From an uncultured Senegalimassilia sp. (GTDB lineage Bacteria; Actinomycetota; Coriobacteriia; Coriobacteriales; Eggerthellaceae), in NCBI GenBank assembly GCA_937925385.1, contig CALEWN010000052.1, positions 1-8,544 of the forward strand: a stretch of DNA of 8,544 nt, read 5' to 3'. Below the pieces are notes generated by a model. It searched no databases. It was not told where the DNA came from and saw only the letters and a program-made list of their open reading frames with translations. The position numbers and the translations under genes are program-made. This document shows positions 1 to 8,544 of the stretch, piece by piece (the first letter of the stretch is position 1; each line of letters begins with the position of its first letter).

Positions 1-242
1 TGCTCGCTCTCATAGCGGACATCGGGGGCGAACTGGGAGAGGTCCGGCAGGCCGAAGTTGTAGAGGGGGACCACGTCGAACATCTCCCAGGCCCGGCGGG
101 TGTCCTCGAGGGTGGTGTCGCCGATCCAGCTCTTGCCGGCCAGCTTGGTGTCGAACCCGGCCCTCGCGCTGATCTGAGGGGAGCAGAGAAATTTTTTCCC
201 GCCGTTTTTCACATAGGAGATCAGCTGTTCTCTGGCAGTCAT
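1..242 (-). CDS. Uroporphyrinogen decarboxylase-like protein, N-terminal part (cut by window edge)
   Basis: About 80 residues are visible, from ATG at 242 running off the left edge. The protein opens MTAREQLISYVKNGG and continues with FLCSPQISARAGFDTKLAG and a segment VVPLYNFGLPDLSQF. This resembles the start of UroD-superfamily proteins of the corrinoid methyltransferase or decarboxylase-like type, which bind a tetrapyrrole or act with a corrinoid protein. That family call is inference from overall resemblance, and no catalytic residue can be checked in so short a piece. The start is well supported: AGGAGGGG lies 8 bases upstream and overlaps the stop of the preceding ORF, so the two are probably translationally linked. 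The preceding ORF also ends in a UroD-like tail, so this looks like a tandem pair. Codon style (AGA, AGG, CCC, GGG) differs somewhat from the rest of the window. Confidence 0.55.
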   Translation of the reverse strand, partial: MTAREQLISYVKNGGKKFLCSPQISARAGFDTKLAGKSWIGDTTLEDTRRAWEMFDVVPLYNFGLPDLSQFAPDVRYESE

Positions 243-255
243 AGAGTGTCCCCTC

Positions 256-852
256 CTAGCAGGAAGCGTTGTGGCGGTCTACGATCTCGCCCACGTATTT
301 GACGCGGTCGATATTGCCGGTGGAGGACATCTCGTCGGAAATACCCAGGATCAGCTTTCCGGCGAACAGGTCGATCAGCTGCTCTGTCTGCTGCTTCAGC
401 ATTTCCAGGGGATACATCTCGTCGAACAGCAAAGCGGCGATGCCGTCTACCAGGCCCACCTGGTCCCCAAAGGCCGCCTTGATCTCCTCTACCGTCACAT
501 CCCCCTGGGGCTTGGGGGTCACGGCCTCGATGGCGTCCAGGCCCGTCTCCTTGGCGTAGGGCAGGATGGTGTCCGTGGCGCCCAGAAGGTTGACGAAGGG
601 CTCTTTGACAGGGAACTTCTCCGAACCGCACAGCACGGAGTGCTCTAGGATGTGAAACACGCCGGTGTCATCGGCCGGAGGGGTGCGGAAGGCGATGGAG
701 AACGCTTTGTTGCGGTCGTCGTTGCGCAGGTATAGAAGCTTTGCGCCGCTTGCCGGATGGGAAAGCGTATAGGCATCGCCGTCGATCTCGGGCAAGGGCT
801 CGGCCGTGAGCACGGTGAACCCGTGCAGTTCCTGGCCTTGTTCAAGGTTCAT
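256..852 (-). CDS. Chimeric ORF: M16C zinc peptidase N-terminus joined to UroD-like C-terminus
   Basis: The 198-residue frame has two unrelated halves. Residues 1-90 match the start of PreP-type M16C metallopeptidases: NDDRNKAFSIAF, then the inverted zinc motif HxxEH at H67-E70-H71 followed by SVLCGSEKFPVKEPFVNLL. Such enzymes are about 950-1000 residues long and continue with a KGS(L/M)QTFLNAMT-like segment, which is absent. From residue 91 the sequence instead reads TILPYAKETGLDAIEAVTP, GDVTVEEIK and LILGISDEMSSTGNIDRVK, typical of the last third of UroD-superfamily proteins. The switch falls near base 583. The start ATG at 852 has a weak AAAGG about 8 bases upstream. The product lacks most of the peptidase domain and most of the UroD barrel, so it is unlikely to be an active enzyme of either kind. 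It is either an assembly join or a real deletion fusion. Confidence 0.7.
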   Translation of the reverse strand: MNLEQGQELHGFTVLTAEPLPEIDGDAYTLSHPASGAKLLYLRNDDRNKAFSIAFRTPPADDTGVFHILEHSVLCGSEKFPVKEPFVNLLGATDTILPYAKETGLDAIEAVTPKPQGDVTVEEIKAAFGDQVGLVDGIAALLFDEMYPLEMLKQQTEQLIDLFAGKLILGISDEMSSTGNIDRVKYVGEIVDRHNASC

Positions 853-978
853 GCAAGCCGCCTTTCTCTTAACTGGTTTCGCCCGCTATTGTCGCACAAC
901 GGCGGCGGCGCCGGGCAAGGCGCCAGAGCTGCTCCGTGGTTTTTCTACCTAGGAAGCGGGGCGTGCCGGCCAATCCTT

Positions 979-984
979 TATAAT
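979..984 (+). promoter_or_regulatory. Possible -10 box for the 1030-2606 gene pair
   Basis: A perfect TATAAT sits about 45 bases before the start codon at 1030, in the gap between divergent genes. No convincing -35 hexamer is seen 16-18 bases upstream, where the sequence is G/C-rich. The call therefore rests on the -10 match and position only. Confidence 0.45.
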
Positions 985-1029
985 CGGGGGCATACACAGC
1001 ATGGAAACGCACAAGGCAGGAGGTTCGGC

Positions 1030-1434
1030 ATGGCGCAAGATCAGCGCTTCTCCCATATCACGGTCAATGCCGGCGATGATGACGATGTGGTCATCCAGGC
1101 GGGCGCTTATGGCCGTCACCAGGGCGAAGATGTTCCCGAAGAGGCTGTTCACGCAAAGCCCGAGCCTCAGGTTGCTCCCGTTGAGGCGCCCAAACCGCAG
1201 CATGCGGCTCAGCAGATGCCTGCCCACGAGCCTGCCGCGAAACCGCATGCCGAACACGCCCGCAAGGCGCAAGCCGCCGATCCCGATAACCGACCGAAGC
1301 CTGCCCATCGTGCAGAGCAGACCCTTGAAGACCTGGATGCGGGCCCCATGTCGGGCATGCAGAAGGCGGTGCTCGTCGGCATCGGCCTTATCATCGTCGC
1401 GGCGGTCGTCTACTTCGCCCTGTTCATGCGCTGA
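1030..1434 (+). CDS. Hypothetical protein with C-terminal membrane anchor
   Basis: This 134-residue protein is not one I recognise. It opens MAQDQRFSHITVNAGDDDDVVIQAG, then has a long, probably disordered segment (about residues 35-105) rich in Pro, Ala, His, Lys and Glu. It ends in one hydrophobic helix (about 111-132, VLVGIGLIIVAAVVYFALF) followed by MR. There is no signal peptide, so the likely topology is tail-anchored with the body in the cytoplasm. The start at 1030 is chosen because GGCAGGAGG ends about 6 bases before it; the frame stays open further upstream, but that stretch overlaps the divergent gene and lacks a ribosome site. It lies 29 bases before the next membrane protein gene, so the two probably form an operon and may act together. 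Confidence 0.8.
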   Translation: MAQDQRFSHITVNAGDDDDVVIQAGAYGRHQGEDVPEEAVHAKPEPQVAPVEAPKPQHAAQQMPAHEPAAKPHAEHARKAQAADPDNRPKPAHRAEQTLEDLDAGPMSGMQKAVLVGIGLIIVAAVVYFALFMR

Positions 1435-1463
1435 TCGGCTGTTTTCAAGAGAAAGGCCTGACC

Positions 1464-2606
1464 ATGTCCAAACATAGCTTCAACATCGCTCGCGGCGCCC
1501 GCAAGCAGCAGCCCGAAAGCGACGCCTCCCTGGGTTTGACCGAGGCGTTCGCGCCCATCGGGGCCGGCGATGCCCCCGAGCCGCGCGCTGCCGCCGACGG
1601 CGATACGTCGCTCGGCCTGACCGAGGCGTTCGCGCCCGTTGCCGCCTCCCATGGCGCCCATGCCGCCGGATTCAGCTATCAAGGCGACACCTCGGAGGAC
1701 TATTCCGACCCGGTGGAGAGCCTCGAGCCGCGCGACGAGCCCGTGTTCGGCGACGAGGTCCCCGCGCCCGCACCCGCTCAAACCCGCGGCCGCCACGGCA
1801 AGCCCGAGCCGGTGGAGCATCCGCATCTCAAGAAGTCGCGCCGCGTGCGCCGCGTGCTCGTGGTGATCGTCGCCTTGCTGGTGGTGCTGGCGTGCGCGCT
1901 GGGGTATTTCGCCTTCCAGCTGTGGAACGAGTCCAGCCGCGCCATGGTGCAGCAGACCCAAGCCCAGCAGCAGTCCACCGACGTGGGCAACCTGTCGCAG
2001 GACAATTCCGGCAAGGACGCGGCAAGCGCCACCACCACCAAGAAGACCGAGGTTCCCAACCTGGTCGGCGTGCTGGGGCAAACCCAGGATGCGGCCGTGA
2101 CCGCGCTTGCCCATGGCGCAACGGTCACGTCCTCCAAGGATGTCAACGAGGAGGGCAATTCCGTGAAGAAAAGCGTCACGGTGGCCCTTACCGCAGAGCC
2201 TGCCGACTCCCGTTCGGGCACGCCTACGGTCTACCTTGGGCTTGATGCCGACGGCAAGGTCATCCAGGCCGGTTACTCCGCCGCCACCGCGTCGCTCGGA
2301 TACGGCTCGCTGAGCTTCGCCGATGCCGTGAAGAACGAGCACATCGTCGAGAAGACGCTGCGCGAGGCGGGCGTGAACGTGGCGGATGGGTCGGCAACGC
2401 TGCCCGCCGATAAGACCTCGTACTCCAGCTACGCATCCGACGGCACCACCCTGGTGAAGGAGAACTGCTCGTTTAGCGGTACCGTCGACATCAACGGCGC
2501 CGCCCATGCCTGGTCGAGCGTGCTTATGTACGATTACAGCACGGCAAACGCCTCGGGCAACCTAGCCGACACCGTCCGCATCATCTATATCTACGTGAAC
2601 GCGTAG
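1464..2606 (+). CDS. Hypothetical single-pass membrane protein with PASTA-like outer segment
   Basis: This 380-residue protein is of unknown function. Residues 1-120 form an acidic, Pro/Ala-rich cytoplasmic region holding a duplicated motif, D-x-SLGLTEAFAP, at residues 20-31 and 47-58. A basic stretch (KKSRRVRR, 123-130) precedes one membrane helix at about 131-152, which suggests an N-in, C-out topology. After a Gln/Ser/Thr-rich linker, residues 197-243 start VPNLVGVLGQTQDAAVTAL, which resembles the first half of a PASTA repeat (VPxLxG with a following Ala/Leu helix). PASTA repeats bind peptidoglycan or beta-lactam-like ligands in other proteins; that role is inference here. The C-terminal 140 residues form a Ser/Thr/Tyr-rich extracytoplasmic domain ending in beta-like VRIIYIYVNA. 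A GAGAAAGG ribosome site precedes ATG 1464. It is probably co-transcribed with the anchored protein upstream. Confidence 0.8.
   Translation: MSKHSFNIARGARKQQPESDASLGLTEAFAPIGAGDAPEPRAAADGDTSLGLTEAFAPVAASHGAHAAGFSYQGDTSEDYSDPVESLEPRDEPVFGDEVPAPAPAQTRGRHGKPEPVEHPHLKKSRRVRRVLVVIVALLVVLACALGYFAFQLWNESSRAMVQQTQAQQQSTDVGNLSQDNSGKDAASATTTKKTEVPNLVGVLGQTQDAAVTALAHGATVTSSKDVNEEGNSVKKSVTVALTAEPADSRSGTPTVYLGLDADGKVIQAGYSAATASLGYGSLSFADAVKNEHIVEKTLREAGVNVADGSATLPADKTSYSSYASDGTTLVKENCSFSGTVDINGAAHAWSSVLMYDYSTANASGNLADTVRIIYIYVNA
1537..1556 (+). repeat. Direct repeat copy 1 (in-frame motif duplication)
   Basis: The 20 bases here recur exactly at 1618-1637. The spacing is 81 bases (27 codons), so the repeat preserves frame and encodes the LTEAFAP part of the duplicated SLGLTEAFAP motif. 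The exact match suggests recent duplication or selection on the peptide. Confidence 0.85.
1618..1637 (+). repeat. Direct repeat copy 2 (in-frame motif duplication)
   Basis: Second copy of the 20-base repeat at 1537-1556, encoding the second LTEAFAP motif in the cytoplasmic region of the same protein. Confidence 0.85.
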
Positions 2607-2613
2607 CTTGCAG

Positions 2614-2635
2614 CCGGCGGCCGGATGGTCGCCGG
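2614..2635 (+). terminator. Weak possible terminator after the membrane protein pair
   Basis: CCGGCG (2614-2619) can pair with CGCCGG (2630-2635) across a 10-base loop, 8 bases after the stop codon at 2606. Only a broken T stretch follows (TGCTATTTG), so termination would be weak or factor-assisted. Confidence 0.3.
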
Positions 2636-2827
2636 TGCTATTTGCGGTCGGGAACCGGGGTTTTGCACTTGACGCGTCGGGACGCAAGAACTTGGTCGAT
2701 GGCCTGGGCTGGAGCTGGGCAGGCCTATCGCGGCGCGTGCTAGCGAGCGGGGGCTTGGATCAGCCTCATGCGGCTTTCGCTTCTTGTGTCCATCTTGTGA
2801 ACGTCGGCCGGCGAAAAGGAAGGTCCC

Positions 2828-2855
2828 TTGCGCTGGTCGGCGTTCGCGCTATAAT
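2828..2855 (+). promoter_or_regulatory. Promoter of infC-rpmI-rplT
   Basis: TTGCGC (2828-2833) and a perfect TATAAT (2850-2855) are 16 bases apart, a good housekeeping sigma promoter. Transcription would start near 2861-2863, giving a leader of about 160 bases before infC. The 200 bases between the previous gene and this promoter show nothing convincing. Confidence 0.7.
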
Positions 2856-2860
2856 AAACG

Positions 2861-2988
2861 AGCTGTTCACAAGCGGGGGCATAGCGCCTCCCACCTAGTT
2901 CGGCGCTTTCAAGCTGCTGATGGGTCGTATGAATACCTGAACATGGTTCGTTCATCACGCCCGCATGCTTGAAGCTGTGGGTTTTTTT
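2861..2988 (+). promoter_or_regulatory. infC operon leader with candidate attenuator
   Basis: The leader ends in an intrinsic terminator: CCCGCA (2960-2965) pairs with TGTGGG (2976-2981) and is followed by seven T (2982-2988). Upstream, TTCAAGCTGC (2908-2917) can pair with 2963-2973, with one bulged base. That pairing uses GCA of the terminator's left arm plus the loop GCTTGAA, so the two structures exclude each other. A separate early hairpin pairs GGGGGC (2875-2880) with GCCTCC (about 2886-2891). In Firmicutes, ribosomal protein L20 controls the same operon through a leader terminator. An analogous control here is inference; the competing pairings are seen directly. Confidence 0.6.
2960..2988 (+). 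terminator. Intrinsic terminator in front of infC (conditional)
   Basis: A six-pair stem (one G-T pair) with a 10-base loop is followed by TTTTTTT, and lies about 32 bases before the infC start. A terminator here with no gene between it and the promoter makes sense only as a regulated attenuator. Confidence 0.65.
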
Positions 2989-3009
2989 ATGCCATGCGAT
3001 ACCGCATGC

Positions 3010-3024
3010 AAGGAAGGAAGGTGA
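3010..3024 (+). promoter_or_regulatory. Purine-rich ribosome binding site of infC, decides the start
   Basis: The stretch AAGGAAGGAAGGTGA is a near copy of the full anti-Shine-Dalgarno complement. Its left part serves GTG 3021 at about 7 bases. Its right part (AAGGTGA, ending 3024) is spaced 5 bases from in-frame ATA 3030. The in-frame ATG codons at 2994 and 3006 have no ribosome site, so they are unlikely starts. Confidence 0.55.
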
Positions 3025-3611
3025 GTGCGATAGCCGCTCAAGAGCCTAGGCTCAACGAACAGATCACGGTGCGCGAGTGCCGCCTGATCGGGTTCGACGG
3101 AACGCAGCTGGGTATCTACCCGGTTGCCCAGGCGCAGCGCGTTGCTGACGACCAGGGGCTTGATCTTGTTGAAATCGCCCCGAATGCGGAACCGCCCGTG
3201 TGCCGCATAATGGATTACGGCAAGTTCAAGTACGATCAGGCCATCAAGGCGAAGCAGGCTCGCAAGAACCAAAGCAAGATCGAGACCAAGGAAATGAAGT
3301 TCCGCCCGAAGATCGATGTGGGGGACTACACCACGAAGAAGAAGCATGTGCTTCGCTTCCTCTCCGCTGGTAACAAGGTCAAGATCACCATCATGTTCCG
3401 CGGCCGCGAGATGGCCCATCCGGAACAGGGCCTGACCATTCTGGAGCGCCTGGCCGACGACCTGAAGGACATTGCGGTCATCGAGAGCCAGCCGAAGATG
3501 GAAGGCCGCAATATGCACATGCTCATCGCCCCGCTTCCCGCAAGCATGGCGGCGAAGAAAAAGAAGGCAAACGACAAGAAAGACGAAGGAAAGGACGAAG
3601 GCAATGCCTAA
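3021..3611 (+). CDS. infC: Translation initiation factor IF-3
   Basis: IF-3 binds the 30S subunit, keeps it apart from 50S, and checks the start codon and initiator tRNA. From GTG 3021 the product is 196 residues, of usual length. The N-terminal domain shows [21 protein letters not shown] and [25 protein letters not shown], the IF-3 signature. The C-terminal domain has [17 protein letters not shown] and [19 protein letters not shown] Lys-rich, charged tail ([16 protein letters not shown]) extends past the usual end. The start is GTG 3021, or possibly ATA 3030; infC often uses a rare start codon so that IF-3 represses its own translation. The stop overlaps the start of rpmI by 8 bases, so the two are translationally coupled. 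Expression is probably controlled by the leader terminator. Confidence 0.95.
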
Positions 3612-3801
3612 GATGAAGACCCATCGCGGTACGGCAAAGCGCTTCCGCGTTACCGGCTCCGGCAAGATCATGCGTGCTAAGGCCTACAAGAGCCACATTC
3701 TGACGAAGAAGTCCCAGAAGCGTAAGCGTAATTTCCGTCACGAGACCGAGCTGTCCGCCGCTGACCGTCGCGTCGTGGCCCGCAACCTCGGCCGTCGCTA
3801 A
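3604..3801 (+). CDS. rpmI: 50S ribosomal protein L35 (bL35)
   Basis: A 65-residue basic protein, full length for L35, a component of the large ribosomal subunit. It shows the family's opening [14 protein letters not shown], then [18 protein letters not shown] and KRKRNFR, and ends RNLGRR. The start codon lies inside the last codons of infC (8-base overlap), with AGGACGAAGG upstream, which points to coupled translation. It is the second gene of the conserved infC-rpmI-rplT operon. Confidence 0.97.
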
Positions 3802-3825
3802 GTTTTAAAGGAGCAGTGATAATCA

Positions 3826-4179
3826 ATGGCTCGTATCAAGCGTGCAGTCAACGCCAAGAAGAAGCGCCGCACCGTCCTTAACCGTGCAAAGGGTTACTAT
3901 GGTGCCAAGTCCCGTTCCTACACCGCTGCTAAGGAACAGGTCCAGCACTCCCTGCAGTACCAGTACCGCGATCGTCGCAACAAGAAGCGCGAGATCCGTC
4001 GTCTGTGGATCACCCGCATCAACGCCGGCGCCCGTCTGAACGGCATGAGCTACTCCGCCTTCATGAACGGCCTGAAGAAGGCTGGCGTGGAGCTGGACCG
4101 CAAGGTGCTCTCCGATATGGCCATCAACGACCCCGCGGCTTTCACCGCCATCGTCGAGGTGGCCAAGAAGGCCCTGTAA
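3826..4179 (+). CDS. rplT: 50S ribosomal protein L20 (bL20)
   Basis: A 117-residue protein of standard length. L20 binds 23S rRNA early in large-subunit assembly and, in several bacteria, represses its own operon by binding the mRNA. Visible family features are the start [15 protein letters not shown], the basic extension with [37 protein letters not shown] and the helical C-terminal part with [29 protein letters not shown] at 3807-3813 is a strong ribosome site. It is the last gene of the operon, 24 bases after rpmI, and is followed at once by a strong terminator. Confidence 0.97.
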
Positions 4180-4203
4180 GCTACAATAGCTTCATATATG
4201 CAG

Positions 4204-4235
4204 CACCCCGCTTGGGAATCCAAGCGGGGTGTTTT
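4204..4235 (+). terminator. Strong intrinsic terminator of the infC operon
   Basis: A perfect 12-bp stem (4204-4215 with 4220-4231) closes on a 4-base GAAT loop and is followed by TTTT, 24 bases after the rplT stop. Confidence 0.92.
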
Positions 4236-4484
4236 GCGTTCCGGCGGTGTGTTGCTTCGAGCGTGTTCGATGACCGCTTGTGCGCGGCCTGTTGTGGACA
4301 TGGATTCGATCGGCATTAAGCCGATCGAACCGAAATGTTCGGCTTGCGAGTGGATGCTTTTGAATCGCAAGCACGTTACGGTGCTCGATCCTTCAAGGCT
4401 TGGGGGATAGTGCAGCGTTAAAGGCACGGCCCTTCTTTGCGGGCGTCTTCGCCATCCTTCGGGTGCTCCGGGATTTCGGACGCG
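4236..4484. other. Gene-free gap with three adjacent hairpins
   Basis: No supported gene lies between rplT and the convergent NifX-like gene. The notable content is three inverted repeats placed end to end: TTCGATCGGC/GCCGATCGAA (4305-4314 with 4320-4329, perfect 10 bp, 5-base loop), CCGAA/TTCGG (4330-4334 with 4338-4342, 3-base loop) and GCTTGCGA/TCGCAAGC (4342-4349 with 4365-4372, perfect 8 bp, 15-base loop). None is followed by a T run and I find no good promoter. Bases 4373-4484 hold nothing I can name. Confidence 0.5.
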
Positions 4485-4510
4485 AAAAAAGCGCCCCTTA
4501 AGGGCGCTTT
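4485..4510 (-). terminator. Terminator of the NifX-like gene
   Basis: AAAGCGCCC (4488-4496) pairs with GGGCGCTTT (4502-4510) over a 5-base loop. Read on the minus strand it is followed by a six-T run (4490-4485). It lies 35 bases past the stop of the minus-strand gene at 4545. The plus-strand side has only TTTCC, so it acts mainly on the minus strand. Confidence 0.85.
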
Positions 4511-4544
4511 CCACGTGCCATGCTATCGCGTGGCGCCAAAGCGC

Positions 4545-4877
4545 CTACGATGCCTCCAGCTCTTCGTGCGTTCCGGACAGCGTGCGGCCGATATACGTGC
4601 GTGCGGCAGCGGATGCGGTTCCGGTGTAGCCGGTTTGAACCTCGATGCCGGCCGCTTTCAGGGCCGTCTCAGAGGCTGGATCGATCCTGTTGACGATCAT
4701 GACGCTGACTTCAAGGTCTTTCAGCACCTGAGCCAGCTGAGCCGGAGGGAACGAAAGATTCGGCATGTTCTGGCAATCGGCGAACATGCCACGGTCAACG
4801 CGATAGCACATGAAACTAGAGCTGCGTGCGAACCTTGGCGCCACATCAAGCCCTTGGCAAGCTACCGCTATGCGCAT
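4545..4877 (-). CDS. NifB/NifX-family iron-molybdenum cluster-binding-like protein
   Basis: A 110-residue cytoplasmic protein with the fold signature of the dinitrogenase iron-molybdenum cofactor family (NifX/NafY/MTH1175-like). It starts MRIAVACQGLDVAPRFARSSSF with the usual strand and VAPxF loop. It then has SFPPAQLAQVLKDLEVSVMIVNRID and ends with the ETALKAAGIEVQTGYTGTASAA segment. Three Cys (C8, C24, C35) lie in the N-terminal part and could ligate a metal cluster; that is inference. No nitrogenase gene is present. Stand-alone members are widespread in anaerobes, and most have unknown metal partners. The start at 4877 has a strong AGGAGG 7-12 bases upstream. It follows the helicase gene by about 90 bases, with a hairpin between, and has its own terminator. 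Confidence 0.85.
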   Translation of the reverse strand: MRIAVACQGLDVAPRFARSSSFMCYRVDRGMFADCQNMPNLSFPPAQLAQVLKDLEVSVMIVNRIDPASETALKAAGIEVQTGYTGTASAAARTYIGRTLSGTHEELEAS

Positions 4878-4932
4878 GGCGTCCTCCCTCCTAAAGACGT
4901 ATACACTTTACCGATAGATTACCGGGGTTCTA

Positions 4933-4956
4933 TGCGCCGGCCCCTTAACCGGCGCA
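4933..4956. other. Hairpin between helicase and NifX-like genes
   Basis: TGCGCCGG (4933-4940) and CCGGCGCA (4949-4956) form a perfect 8-bp stem with an 8-base loop, just after the helicase stop on the minus strand. No T run follows on either strand, so it may be a weak or factor-aided terminator, or an mRNA 3' end stabiliser. Confidence 0.45.
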
Positions 4957-4966
4957 ATAGCATCTG

Positions 4967-6478
4967 TTAGCGGCGCCTGTTGCGCTGGTGCGCAACCTGG
5001 GCGCGATGGGCGCGTCCAGGACGGAAATCGCCGTTCTGCGTTCCGGTGGCGTTTGCCTTTGCGCGGTTGGCGGAAGCGTTCTTCTGGCCGGCGCTGCGCT
5101 TGTGCTGCGAGCCGTGATCGGCGTTGCTGTGCTTCCTCGCGGCGTTGGCCGTCCCGCTGGCGGGCTTCTCCGCGCCCTTGCGGTTGCCGCGCTTGGTGCG
5201 ACGGGTGTTCACCTCTTCGGCCTGTGCCGCCTCGCGGGCCTTGTCCTTCCTGCGCTTGCGGGCAGCTTGCTCCTTTTTGGCTTGCTGAATCTCGGGGTCG
5301 CGACGTGCCTCGGCGCGCTGCGCCCTGGCCGCGGCCTCGTTCTCGGCTTCGTGCATGTCGAAGTTCTGAAGCTCAAGCTCGGGGATGGTGCGCTTGAGCA
5401 GCTTCTGGATGTCGCGCAGCGCGTCGGCGGTTTCGGGGCTGACGAAGCTGACGGCGAAGCCCGTAGCGCCTGCACGGCCCGTGCGGCCGATGCGGTGCAC
5501 GTAGTCTTCGGGCTGCGTGGGCAGGTCGTAGTTCACCACATACTCGACTTCCTCAACGTCGATGCCGCGTGCGAGCACGTCGGTGGCCACCAGCACGTCG
5601 GTGGTGCCGTTGGCGAAGTTCTCAAGGGCGCGGCGGCGCTGGTTCTGGCTGCGGCTGGAGTGGATGGCCTCGACGGAGTACCCGACCTTTTTCAGACGGC
5701 GGCACGTGGCGTCCGCGCGGCTGCGCGTGCGGCAGAACACGATGACGCGCCTGTGGCCGCGTTCCTTCATAAGGCCCTTGAGCAGCTCGGGCTTCACCGC
5801 CTGCTGCACGTGCATGACGTACTGCTCCACCGTGTCGGCGGTTTCGCCCTTGTGGGCGATCTCGACCATGGCGGGATCGTGCAAAAGCTTGCCGGCCGTG
5901 TTCATGATGGTGCGGTCGATGGTGGCGCTGAACAGCAGGGTTTGGCGGTTTTGCGGCGTGGCGCCGATGATCTTGCGCATGGCCGGCCAGAACCCCATGT
6001 CAAGCATGCGATCGGCCTCGTCGAGCACGAGCACTTCCACGCTGCTCAAGTGGGCGGCCCCTTGATCCATAAGGTCCACCAGGCGGCCCGGCGTGGCGAT
6101 GAGCACGTCGATGCCGCGGTTGAGTGCTTGGATTTGCGGGTTGTAGGAAACGCCGCCGACCACGGTGAGGATGCGATGGTGCGTGTTCTTTGCGATGGTG
6201 CCGCACACCTCGCCGATCTGCTCGGCAAGCTCGCGCGTGGGGGTGACCACCAGCATGAGCGGGCCCTTGTTGCCCTTTGCGTGGCCGAGCTTATCCATGG
6301 TGGGCAGGCTGAACGCGGCGGTCTTGCCCGTCCCGGTCTTCGCTGCGGCGATTAGGTCGCGGCCTTCGAGCACCTTGGGGATGGCCTGCTCCTGCACAGG
6401 GGTGGGGGTGCTGTAACCGAGTTGGGCCACAGCCTGCAATGCCTGGCCTGAAAGGCCGAGGTCGTCGAAATGCGTCAT
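4967..6478 (-). CDS. DEAD-box ATP-dependent RNA helicase (RhlE-like)
   Basis: This 503-residue protein unwinds RNA duplexes with ATP, acting in ribosome assembly or RNA decay. The motifs are all present and intact: Q motif (F4 and Q29), AKTGTGKT (46-53), PTREL (80-84), GG (108-109), TPGR (129-132), DEAD (153-156), SAT (184-186), VIVFCRT (245-251), ATDVLARGID (298-307) and HRIGRTGRAG (328-337). Domain 2 ends near residue 375. A tail of about 125 residues follows, rich in Arg, Lys, Ala and Asn, low in complexity and ending QRNRRR; such tails anchor RhlE-type helicases to RNA. The start has GGAAAGG upstream at suitable spacing. It lies 32 bases after the glycosyltransferase gene, so the two are probably on one transcript. 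Confidence 0.95.
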   Translation of the reverse strand: MTHFDDLGLSGQALQAVAQLGYSTPTPVQEQAIPKVLEGRDLIAAAKTGTGKTAAFSLPTMDKLGHAKGNKGPLMLVVTPTRELAEQIGEVCGTIAKNTHHRILTVVGGVSYNPQIQALNRGIDVLIATPGRLVDLMDQGAAHLSSVEVLVLDEADRMLDMGFWPAMRKIIGATPQNRQTLLFSATIDRTIMNTAGKLLHDPAMVEIAHKGETADTVEQYVMHVQQAVKPELLKGLMKERGHRRVIVFCRTRSRADATCRRLKKVGYSVEAIHSSRSQNQRRRALENFANGTTDVLVATDVLARGIDVEEVEYVVNYDLPTQPEDYVHRIGRTGRAGATGFAVSFVSPETADALRDIQKLLKRTIPELELQNFDMHEAENEAAARAQRAEARRDPEIQQAKKEQAARKRRKDKAREAAQAEEVNTRRTKRGNRKGAEKPASGTANAARKHSNADHGSQHKRSAGQKNASANRAKANATGTQNGDFRPGRAHRAQVAHQRNRRR

Positions 6479-6510
6479 GTAAGGTAGATCCTTTCCAGAT
6501 GCGCGCGGCT

Positions 6511-7773
6511 CTATCGCACGTGCGCGGGTTTATGCCCCCAATAGAAATGGAGGAAATGCTTCTTGTACAGCGGGTTTGCCGGGTCCTTCTCGGCGTTTGC
6601 CAGCTCCATGGTCGCGCACGCTATGTCGCGTGCCGCGTCGGGGCGGCGAAGGAAGCTGCCGTTGACCAGCATGGAGCGGGCGCTTTCAGGGCTGCGCGAG
6701 ATGTGACGCAGCGCTTCGAGCAGCTCTCGCCAGGTGGTGACGTGCATGGCCGCGCCGTGTGCGGTGAGCAGCCTGACGTTGGCGTTTTCCTGGCCGTATG
6801 CGCGGCCCAGCAAGATCATGGGCACCTGCGCACACAGGCATTCGGTGACGGTAAGGCCGCCGGATTTGCAGATGACCAGGTCCGATGCCGCCATAAGCCC
6901 TGCCATGCCCTCGACATATTCAAGCACCGTCACGTAATCGGAGATGCCCAGGTCGCTGCAGGCCCTTCGCAGATGACCGGCGTATTCCGCATCGTTTCCC
7001 GCGACGAACACGAAATGCAGCGTGTCGCCGAACGTGTGCAGGTACGGCAGCAGGTTGTCGAGCGCCGTGCGGAAGTGCACATAGGGCCGTGGCAGATAGG
7101 CTCCGGCCAGTGCCAGCACGATGCGCTTGTCCTGCGGCAGCCCCAACCGTTGACGGGTTTGCTCGCGGTCATAGCTTGCGCGGAAATCCTCGCGCGTGGG
7201 GATGCCGGTGATGCGGATGCGCTGCTCGGGCACCAGGCGCGGGCGCAGCGTTTCGGCCATGCTCTCCGTTGCGACGCAGAACAGGTCGCTGGACTGATGC
7301 GGCCAGAGGCCCTCGGTTTCGTAGTCGGTGGGGACGCACACGATGGGGAAGTGCTGTCCGGTGAGCATGCGCGCCGCCACTGCCACGTTTGCCGCGGTGA
7401 TGTGCGTGCAGATGATGGCAAGCGGGCGGCGTTTGCGCACCAGTTCGGTGAACTTGCCGTACATCAGGTGCGACCATATGCTGCCGCCTCCCCACAAAAG
7501 CCTGCCGGTAAACGTGAAGCGCCACGTCAGGTCGTATATAGGGCGGGTAGGGCCGGTGAACATTGAAGCGGTTTTGTCGCCATCGAACACCACGCGACCG
7601 AAATCGAGCACGTCAAGCACTTCGACCTCAAGTCCGTCAGGGAGTTTCGGCACATCGGGAAAGGCCTCGGTGGGCTGCTCGCGTCCTTCGGCCTGCTCGG
7701 CCTTCATATATTCGAAGGCTTGCGCGATGGCGTTCGCCGCGCTGCGATGCCCCGATCCCACCGAAGCGTGCAT
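6511..7773 (-). CDS. MGDG-synthase/UgtP-like glycosyltransferase (family GT28)
   Basis: From ATG 7773 the protein is 420 residues. It matches enzymes that move a sugar from a UDP-sugar to diacylglycerol on the cytoplasmic face, making membrane glycolipids and lipoteichoic acid anchors. The N-terminal acceptor domain has HASVGSGHRSAANAIAQAF (2-20), HITAANVAVA (124-133) and VCVPTDYETEGLWP (145-158). The C-terminal GT-B nucleotide-sugar domain has LALAGAY (220-226), VFVAGN (255-260) and DLVICKSGGLTVTECL (298-313), the UDP-sugar loop. ATG 7773 falls inside the first beta strand and has no ribosome site. The frame stays open upstream and encodes PLVIVM just before HASVGSG, so the real start is probably near ATC 7839, behind an AAGGGAAGG (7850-7842). 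No visible promoter separates it from the tRNA-Glu terminators. The acceptor and sugar are not determined. Confidence 0.88.
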   Translation of the reverse strand: MHASVGSGHRSAANAIAQAFEYMKAEQAEGREQPTEAFPDVPKLPDGLEVEVLDVLDFGRVVFDGDKTASMFTGPTRPIYDLTWRFTFTGRLLWGGGSIWSHLMYGKFTELVRKRRPLAIICTHITAANVAVAARMLTGQHFPIVCVPTDYETEGLWPHQSSDLFCVATESMAETLRPRLVPEQRIRITGIPTREDFRASYDREQTRQRLGLPQDKRIVLALAGAYLPRPYVHFRTALDNLLPYLHTFGDTLHFVFVAGNDAEYAGHLRRACSDLGISDYVTVLEYVEGMAGLMAASDLVICKSGGLTVTECLCAQVPMILLGRAYGQENANVRLLTAHGAAMHVTTWRELLEALRHISRSPESARSMLVNGSFLRRPDAARDIACATMELANAEKDPANPLYKKHFLHFYWGHKPAHVR

Positions 7774-7841
7774 GACGATGACCAGCGGTGCTGTCTGATC
7801 GTTTCGCGAATCGGTTTCGGCGGGGGTAGCGATGATGATTG

Positions 7842-7850
7842 CCTTCCCTT
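7842..7850 (-). promoter_or_regulatory. Ribosome binding site suggesting an ATC start upstream of 7773
   Basis: AAGGGAAGG on the minus strand lies just before three consecutive in-frame ATC codons (7839-7831). No in-frame ATG, GTG or TTG exists between the upstream stop and 7773. If used, it adds 22 residues and completes the first strand of the glycosyltransferase. Confidence 0.4.
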
Positions 7851-7860
7851 CAAGATAGCG

Positions 7861-7882
7861 AAAAAGCCGGCGAGCCGGCTTT
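7861..7882 (-). terminator. Second terminator hairpin after tRNA-Glu
   Basis: On the minus strand AAAGCCGG pairs with CCGGCTTT around a CTCG loop and runs into five T. It lies about 45 bases past the tRNA and about 10 bases before the ribosome site of the glycosyltransferase gene. Confidence 0.8.
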
Positions 7883-7894
7883 CACTAATAAGAA

Positions 7895-7915
7895 GGGCCA
7901 GTACTCGACCGGCCC
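7895..7915 (-). terminator. First terminator hairpin after tRNA-Glu
   Basis: On the minus strand GGGCCGGT pairs with ACTGGCCC (one G-T pair) around CGAGT, followed by TTCTTATT. It starts 11 bases after the encoded CCA end. Confidence 0.65.
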
Positions 7916-7926
7916 TAGCGTTCGAA

Positions 7927-8001
7927 TGGTGCCCCCAACGAGAATCGAACTCGTGTCTCAGCCTTGAAAGGGCCGCGTCCTGACCTCTAGACTATGGGGA
8001 C
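7927..8001 (-). tRNA. tRNA-Glu (anticodon UUC), CCA encoded
   Basis: The full cloverleaf can be drawn. The acceptor GTCCCCA pairs with TGGGGGC, the D stem is GTCT/GGAC, and the anticodon stem CGGCC/GGCTG holds the loop CTTTCAA with anticodon TTC. A short variable loop follows, then the T stem ACGAG/CTCGT with loop TTCGATT. The discriminator is A (7930) and the CCA end is encoded (7929-7927). Glu-tRNA serves both translation and, in many bacteria, tetrapyrrole synthesis. It has its own promoter and two hairpin terminators. Confidence 0.97.
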
Positions 8002-8035
8002 GGGTTGCGCTTCCGTGTCGAAAAGCAGCCCGTTT

Positions 8036-8064
8036 AGTATGCCAAAAAGCAATTCGTTTCGCAA
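8036..8064 (-). promoter_or_regulatory. Promoter of tRNA-Glu
   Basis: On the minus strand TTGCGA (8064-8059) is followed after 17 bases by CATACT (8041-8036), which places the start about 30 bases before the mature tRNA 5' end. Confidence 0.6.
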
Positions 8065-8077
8065 GCCCCTATTGGGC

Positions 8078-8102
8078 GGTTGTGCATATTTCTTACACAA
8101 CC
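8078..8102. repeat. Inverted repeat upstream of the tRNA promoter
   Basis: GGTTGTG (8078-8084) and CACAACC (8096-8102) are perfect complements separated by 11 A/T-rich bases. No T run follows on either strand. It could be a protein binding site or an RNA hairpin; the sequence alone does not decide. Confidence 0.4.
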
Positions 8103-8267
8103 TGATTCCGTTTCAACATAGCGGAAGGGCTCGTTTCGCTCAAACCCCCGTAGACTGATGACCGTCGACAAGGGCGTGAAACGATCGGGTGCATTGGCCT
8201 GCGCTGATGGGGACGCCGTTGCCGACGAAACAGGAGGCTGCGGGAGGCGTTTGCCCGCTGCGGTGCG

Positions 8268-8544
8268 TTAGCGTCCGTAGCGCTCGTATGCTTCCGTGAC
8301 CTCGATCTCGTACTGCTTGCGGTTGCCCTTGACCACCGTGTCCAAGATCAGGCCGCACGCGAAGCACAGCAGGCCGACGAACACCAGGCCCACCGCCAGA
8401 AGCGCCGTGGGCAGCTTCGGCACCAGGCCCGTCGCGGCGAACTGCGCGATGACCGGCACGCCGGCGACAAGCCCCAGCACCACGAACAGAAGCGCCACCC
8501 AGGAGAACAGCGCCAGCGGCTTGTAGTCCTTGAACAGCGACATG
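8268..8544 (-). CDS. Family 2 glycosyltransferase, C-terminal membrane part (cut by window edge)
   Basis: Ninety-two codons are visible, including the stop TAA at 8270-8268; the frame enters from beyond the right edge. The visible part has two hydrophobic helices (about 14-36 and 45-68 of the segment from ATG 8543), an LFKDYKPLALFSW opening, GLVPKLPTALLAVGL and a cytoplasmic tail LDTVVKGNRKQYEIEV. This is the typical end of dolichol/undecaprenyl-phosphate sugar transferases of the GT2 group, which are about 300 or more residues long and attach a sugar to a lipid carrier. The catalytic domain lies outside the window. The ATG at 8543 is almost certainly internal. A weak GCGGG/CCCGC hairpin near 8241-8259 follows the stop. 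Confidence 0.75.
   Translation of the reverse strand, partial: MSLFKDYKPLALFSWVALLFVVLGLVAGVPVIAQFAATGLVPKLPTALLAVGLVFVGLLCFACGLILDTVVKGNRKQYEIEVTEAYERYGR

Follow-up and report, generated by a model that had tools for sequence, protein, structure and literature searches.

Near one end of this contig a single reading frame begins as an M16C peptidase and ends as a protein of the uroporphyrinogen decarboxylase (UroD) type, which raises the question of whether two unrelated genes were fused in a living genome or were placed side by side when the sequence was produced. The window analysed here is the whole contig (8544 bases), so the break between the two parts sits 582 bases from a contig end. 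From the homologues of the two parts, the genomes that match them, and the sequence at the break itself, we conclude with high confidence that this contig end is an inter-species library or assembly chimera and not a real gene fusion. The features on which the argument draws are collected in Table 1.

Table 1 Features at the contig end and in the contig body, in window coordinates
Feature	Position	Strand	Basis
Foreign DNA at the contig tip: last (3') third of one UroD-like gene, 13-base spacer, and 5' start of the next UroD-like gene	1..582	minus	match to L012
5' end (80 codons) of a second UroD-like gene, truncated where the contig stops	3..242	minus	open ORF and L012 counterpart
C-terminal 108 residues of a UroD-like protein	256..582	minus	95% amino-acid identity to L012 and UroD homologue group
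Junction patch, 13 bases, following neither parent well	570..582	minus	5 mismatches to L012
M16C/UroD hybrid ORF	852-256	minus	198 aa, open throughout
5' end (90 codons) of an M16C (PreP-type) peptidase gene, including HILEH and truncated at the junction	583..852	minus	92-95% DNA match to G001
Contig body, colinear with one G001 contig (C1) except 4241-4482	583..8544	.	whole-window search

The initial annotation had described an abrupt switch from M16C to UroD sequence at residue 91 of the hybrid frame, and both the homologues and the parental DNA bear this out. The homologues of residues 1-90 (bases 852-583) are M16 peptidases and those of residues 91-198 (bases 582-256) are the C-termini of UroD-like proteins, placing the break between bases 583 and 582, that is, between residues 90 and 91. 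A homologue search with the hybrid frame returned 839 proteins; the best 120 of these, including the query, were used, and the 119 others were aligned back by BLASTP. These best 119 of 839 form two groups, one consisting of M16 proteins that align to about residue 93 and the other of UroD-like proteins that align from about 81-96 to 198. Among the matches listed, the M16-side alignments usually stop at residue 93 or 97 and the UroD-side alignments start at 81-96, with a few exceptions: on the M16 side P0077, P0046, and P0048 cross the join (to residues 111, 113, and 155, respectively), and on the UroD side P0017 aligns from residue 64. Since the first three continue as M16 straight after the join (KTSMQTFLNAM or RTSMQTFLNAM), and P0017 is a PHP-domain protein ahead of its UroD-like end, no protein among these four combines the two halves. 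The DNA matches to the best parents end exactly at base 582 (locus L012, 96%) and base 583 (genome G001, 92-95%), and ungapped identity past the break is 34/100 to L012 and 39/100 to L002, a locus from G001. The break cuts both parent genes. GC content does not separate the two sides (0.596 in 1-500, 0.624 in 501-1000, and 0.616 in 751-1250). Pfam gave no match in the short ORFs up to E = 1, and the NCBIfam search of these ORFs gave a pitrilysin match only, far below threshold.

On the right side of the break, a search of the full window in G001, the nearest of the genomes compared, matched 583-4240 and 4483-8544 to a single contig of that genome (C1) at 92%, with 5429-6483 also matching elsewhere in G001 at 70%; the same search found no match to 1-582. 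The M16C gene is intact in G001, where it encodes 984 aa; the M16C_assoc, PreP_C, and Peptidase_M16_C domains exceed their cut-offs there, and Peptidase_M16 falls slightly short of its own (20.3 versus 22.3 bits). Residues 1-90 of the hybrid frame align with the N-terminus of M16C peptidases of the PreP/presequence-protease type (PF08367/PF22516), and the zinc motif HxxEH that had been noted among them is found at residues 67-71 as HILEH, which we take to be the M16 zinc motif. Unlike these peptidases, the hybrid frame lacks the ~890 residues that follow, among them the M16C_assoc and PreP_C domains, both of which are present in the intact G001 gene. The names of the M16 homologues (Eggerthellaceae bacterium, Adlercreutzia sp., and Slackia sp.) suggest that the contig body belongs to or near the Eggerthellaceae and, combined with general taxonomy, that the two sides come from different phyla.

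For the left side, genome contigs scanned for the UroD-like part yielded 22 loci, the best of which, at 95% amino-acid identity, is L012 from genome G061, Candidatus Acutalibacter stercorigallinarum, a bacterium described from chicken gut metagenomes (PMC8035907). Bases 1-582 align with L012 free of gaps at 96% nucleotide identity (23 mismatches in 582), an alignment that spans the gene end, the spacer, and the start of the next gene. The UroD-like frame in L012 runs on upstream unbroken and has its stop at 6327. The neighbouring gene had been called a second UroD-like start, and its full-length counterpart (L012:6341-7474, 377 aa) supports that call with a match to URO-D PF01208 at 6.5e-21. 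When bases 1-1400 were searched against G061, 1-582 matched and 583-1400 had no match. Residues 91-198 correspond, in the terms of known families, to the C-terminal third of divergent UroD-like proteins of the uroporphyrinogen decarboxylase superfamily (PF01208); unlike members of that superfamily, the hybrid frame is without the N-terminal two thirds. Pfam found no match to the full URO-D domain PF01208 in the hybrid ORF, the UroD-like family itself being divergent, as indicated by a 371-aa stretch of the intact L012 gene, which has no URO-D match at 1e-3, and by the homologue P0003, which scores 20.2 bits against a cut-off of 23.9.

Genomes related to each parent keep the two sides apart. 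Two sets of 60 genomes were searched, one comprising G001 and 59 relatives and the other G061 and 59 relatives, and no match bridging both sides was found in the 60 genomes around either parent. Around G001, 38 of the 60 genomes match window bases 1-900, with 40 matches in all, 38 of which start at 580-595. One of these 38, in G031, reaches 3 bases left of 583, and the two matches outside this group are short and lie at 473-501 and 778-811. Around G061, 10 of the 60 genomes match bases 1-620, and none of these 10 has a match right of 582. Both genes are also unbroken in individual loci: all eight M16 loci examined out of the 38 genomes with a match (L004-L011) continue as M16 past the junction position for as far as the retrieved sequence extends, and an HWDGD stretch is unbroken at the junction position in 19 of the 21 UroD-like loci examined, a count in which L023 and L029 were missed by the search expression and from which the 22nd locus, L032, was left out as partial. 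Among the 112 proteins returned for residues 71-112, the query alone covers the entire interval and the widest other match covers 71% of it, and the 188 other proteins compared contain none of nine 5-residue words that cross the join.

At the break itself, the patch at 570-582 holds 5 of the 23 mismatches between bases 1-582 and L012, and the hypergeometric value for this cluster (6.4e-5) is descriptive because the interval was picked after the mismatches were seen. The patch reads GATDT, versus GDTKA in L012 and its nearest relatives; among other UroD-like relatives the last three residues vary (for example, GDVRG, GDTYS, and GDCKP), with GD kept in 19 of the 19 printed. A 24-base pattern across the patch has no match with three or fewer mismatches in G001 and G061 and no exact match in 35 loci, viral contigs contain no exact copy of the junction 24-mer, and a 17-base pattern has no match with at most one mismatch in G001, G002, G003, and G061. 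These searches gave no third source for the patch, and in the fetched loci the only exact shared word of at least 12 in the 25 bases around it is one 12-mer in L033, which was read as not meaningful. No long stretch of identical sequence is common to the two parents at the break. Plain k-mer overlap of the parents would not alone explain the patch, so one has to invoke a chimeric molecule, a third sequence that bridged the two, or a donor allele that had diverged. The patch may be a short filler of other source or a divergent donor allele, the latter being possible because the residues at this position vary among UroD-like relatives. If it is a filler, it suggests that what carried the join was a chimeric molecule or some third sequence bridging the parents, rather than simple parental overlap.

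An inter-species chimera accounts for the foreign 582 bases at the contig tip, the truncation of both genes, the lack of any mobile character found, and the 96% match to a different genome. On this reading, the 5' end of the M16C gene of a G001-like bacterium would have been attached to 582 Acutalibacter-like bases during library preparation or assembly, a join made in the tube or the computer rather than in a living cell. The non-overlapping parts have their best matches in different species (1-582 in L012/G061 at 96%, and from 583 on in G001 at 92%), and the junction is absent from the genomes, listed proteins, and viral contigs examined. In this respect the contig resembles the inter-species chimeric contigs of metagenome assemblies as defined in PMC8171044, in which non-overlapping parts match different species; unlike a simple overlap of two parents at a shared word, it has at the join a patch that follows neither of them. 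Contigs of this kind are a recognised error class; for one CAMI dataset, the same source reports that its BLAST criterion marked as chimeric between ~60% (Velvet-based assemblers and Megahit) and 87% (metaSPAdes) of the 500 longest contigs (PMC8171044). Selection is not required to explain why the frame stays open across the join, since two random coding pieces agree in strand and frame about 1 time in 6 by our arithmetic. The hybrid product would hold 90 of the ~984 peptidase residues and would be without about two thirds of the UroD-like protein, so that neither activity would be expected.

The initial annotation had proposed either a metagenomic or assembly chimera or a deletion or recombination that joined two genes in frame. 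The match of the two sides to two genomes favors the chimera and makes a simple deletion inside a single genome a reading that we do not favor. Insertion of a mobile element was likewise set aside, as no phage or plasmid match to 1-1000 was found and UroD-like reading frames are the only ones recognised in 1-582. A real and recent illegitimate recombination across phyla, in which Acutalibacter-like DNA was end-joined with short filler into the M16C gene of this strain, either inserted or replacing part of it, is improbable. It would have destroyed the peptidase and left an in-frame hybrid ORF, and the 13-base patch with its 5 mismatches could be junction filler, the frame stays open, and the donor match is close enough to fit a recent transfer. 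However, the foreign DNA would need to reach the contig tip or beyond, and the piece shows no mobile gene, cuts genes at both of its ends, and matches no phage or plasmid. The join is also absent from the 60 genomes around G001, and the close relatives over residues 1-90 (P0004-P0008 and P0010, 96-99% identical) continue with KTSMQTFLNAM after the join, as G001 does; P0005, P0006, P0007, and P0008 leave M16 sequence further past the join. Were such a recombination real, it would be a fresh disruption of a gene by DNA of a distant bacterium, an event of an uncommon but known kind. A true family of proteins that begin as M16 and end as UroD, the domain order that had been named as the observation that would refute a chimera, is hardly credible even though the ORF is open over 198 codons, as this order was looked for and only the query has both halves among the matches listed (best 120 of 839; 112 for residues 71-112), and the boundary cuts both parent genes.

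With the contig end read as an inter-species chimera, 582 bases resembling another species stand on this contig, and bases 1-582 should be trimmed at 582/583. The matter is mainly one of data hygiene, as a hybrid protein like this one would be a source of error in surveys of fusion proteins or gene transfer. Two of the proteins found in the homologue searches have a similar UroD-like C-terminus behind a different partner. P0002, on a 948-base contig, has it after an unrelated N-terminus that has no Pfam match and is presumably the start of a glycosyltransferase, and P0017, on a 1120-base contig, has it after a PHP domain. Both may likewise lie on chimeric contigs, in which a short word common to the two parts, such as YYTF or GLDGIEA, might have served as the joining point.

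Several further features were observed in the contig body. At 4241-4482, 242 bases occupy the place of 26 bases in the colinear G001 contig, and just upstream of this segment lies an inverted repeat whose two 12-base arms (4204-4215 and 4220-4231) pair perfectly. A search of 4236-4485 against 21 genomes, run with no positive control, gave no match. Before this segment, the plus-strand ORFs 2994-3611 and 3826-4179 presumably encode translation factor IF-3 and ribosomal protein L20, and between them (within 2994-4179, plus strand) is a reading frame that we take to be L35-like. A tRNA-Glu gene (anticodon ttc) was located by ARAGORN on the minus strand at 7927-8001 and was also identified with Rfam, as 7930-8001.
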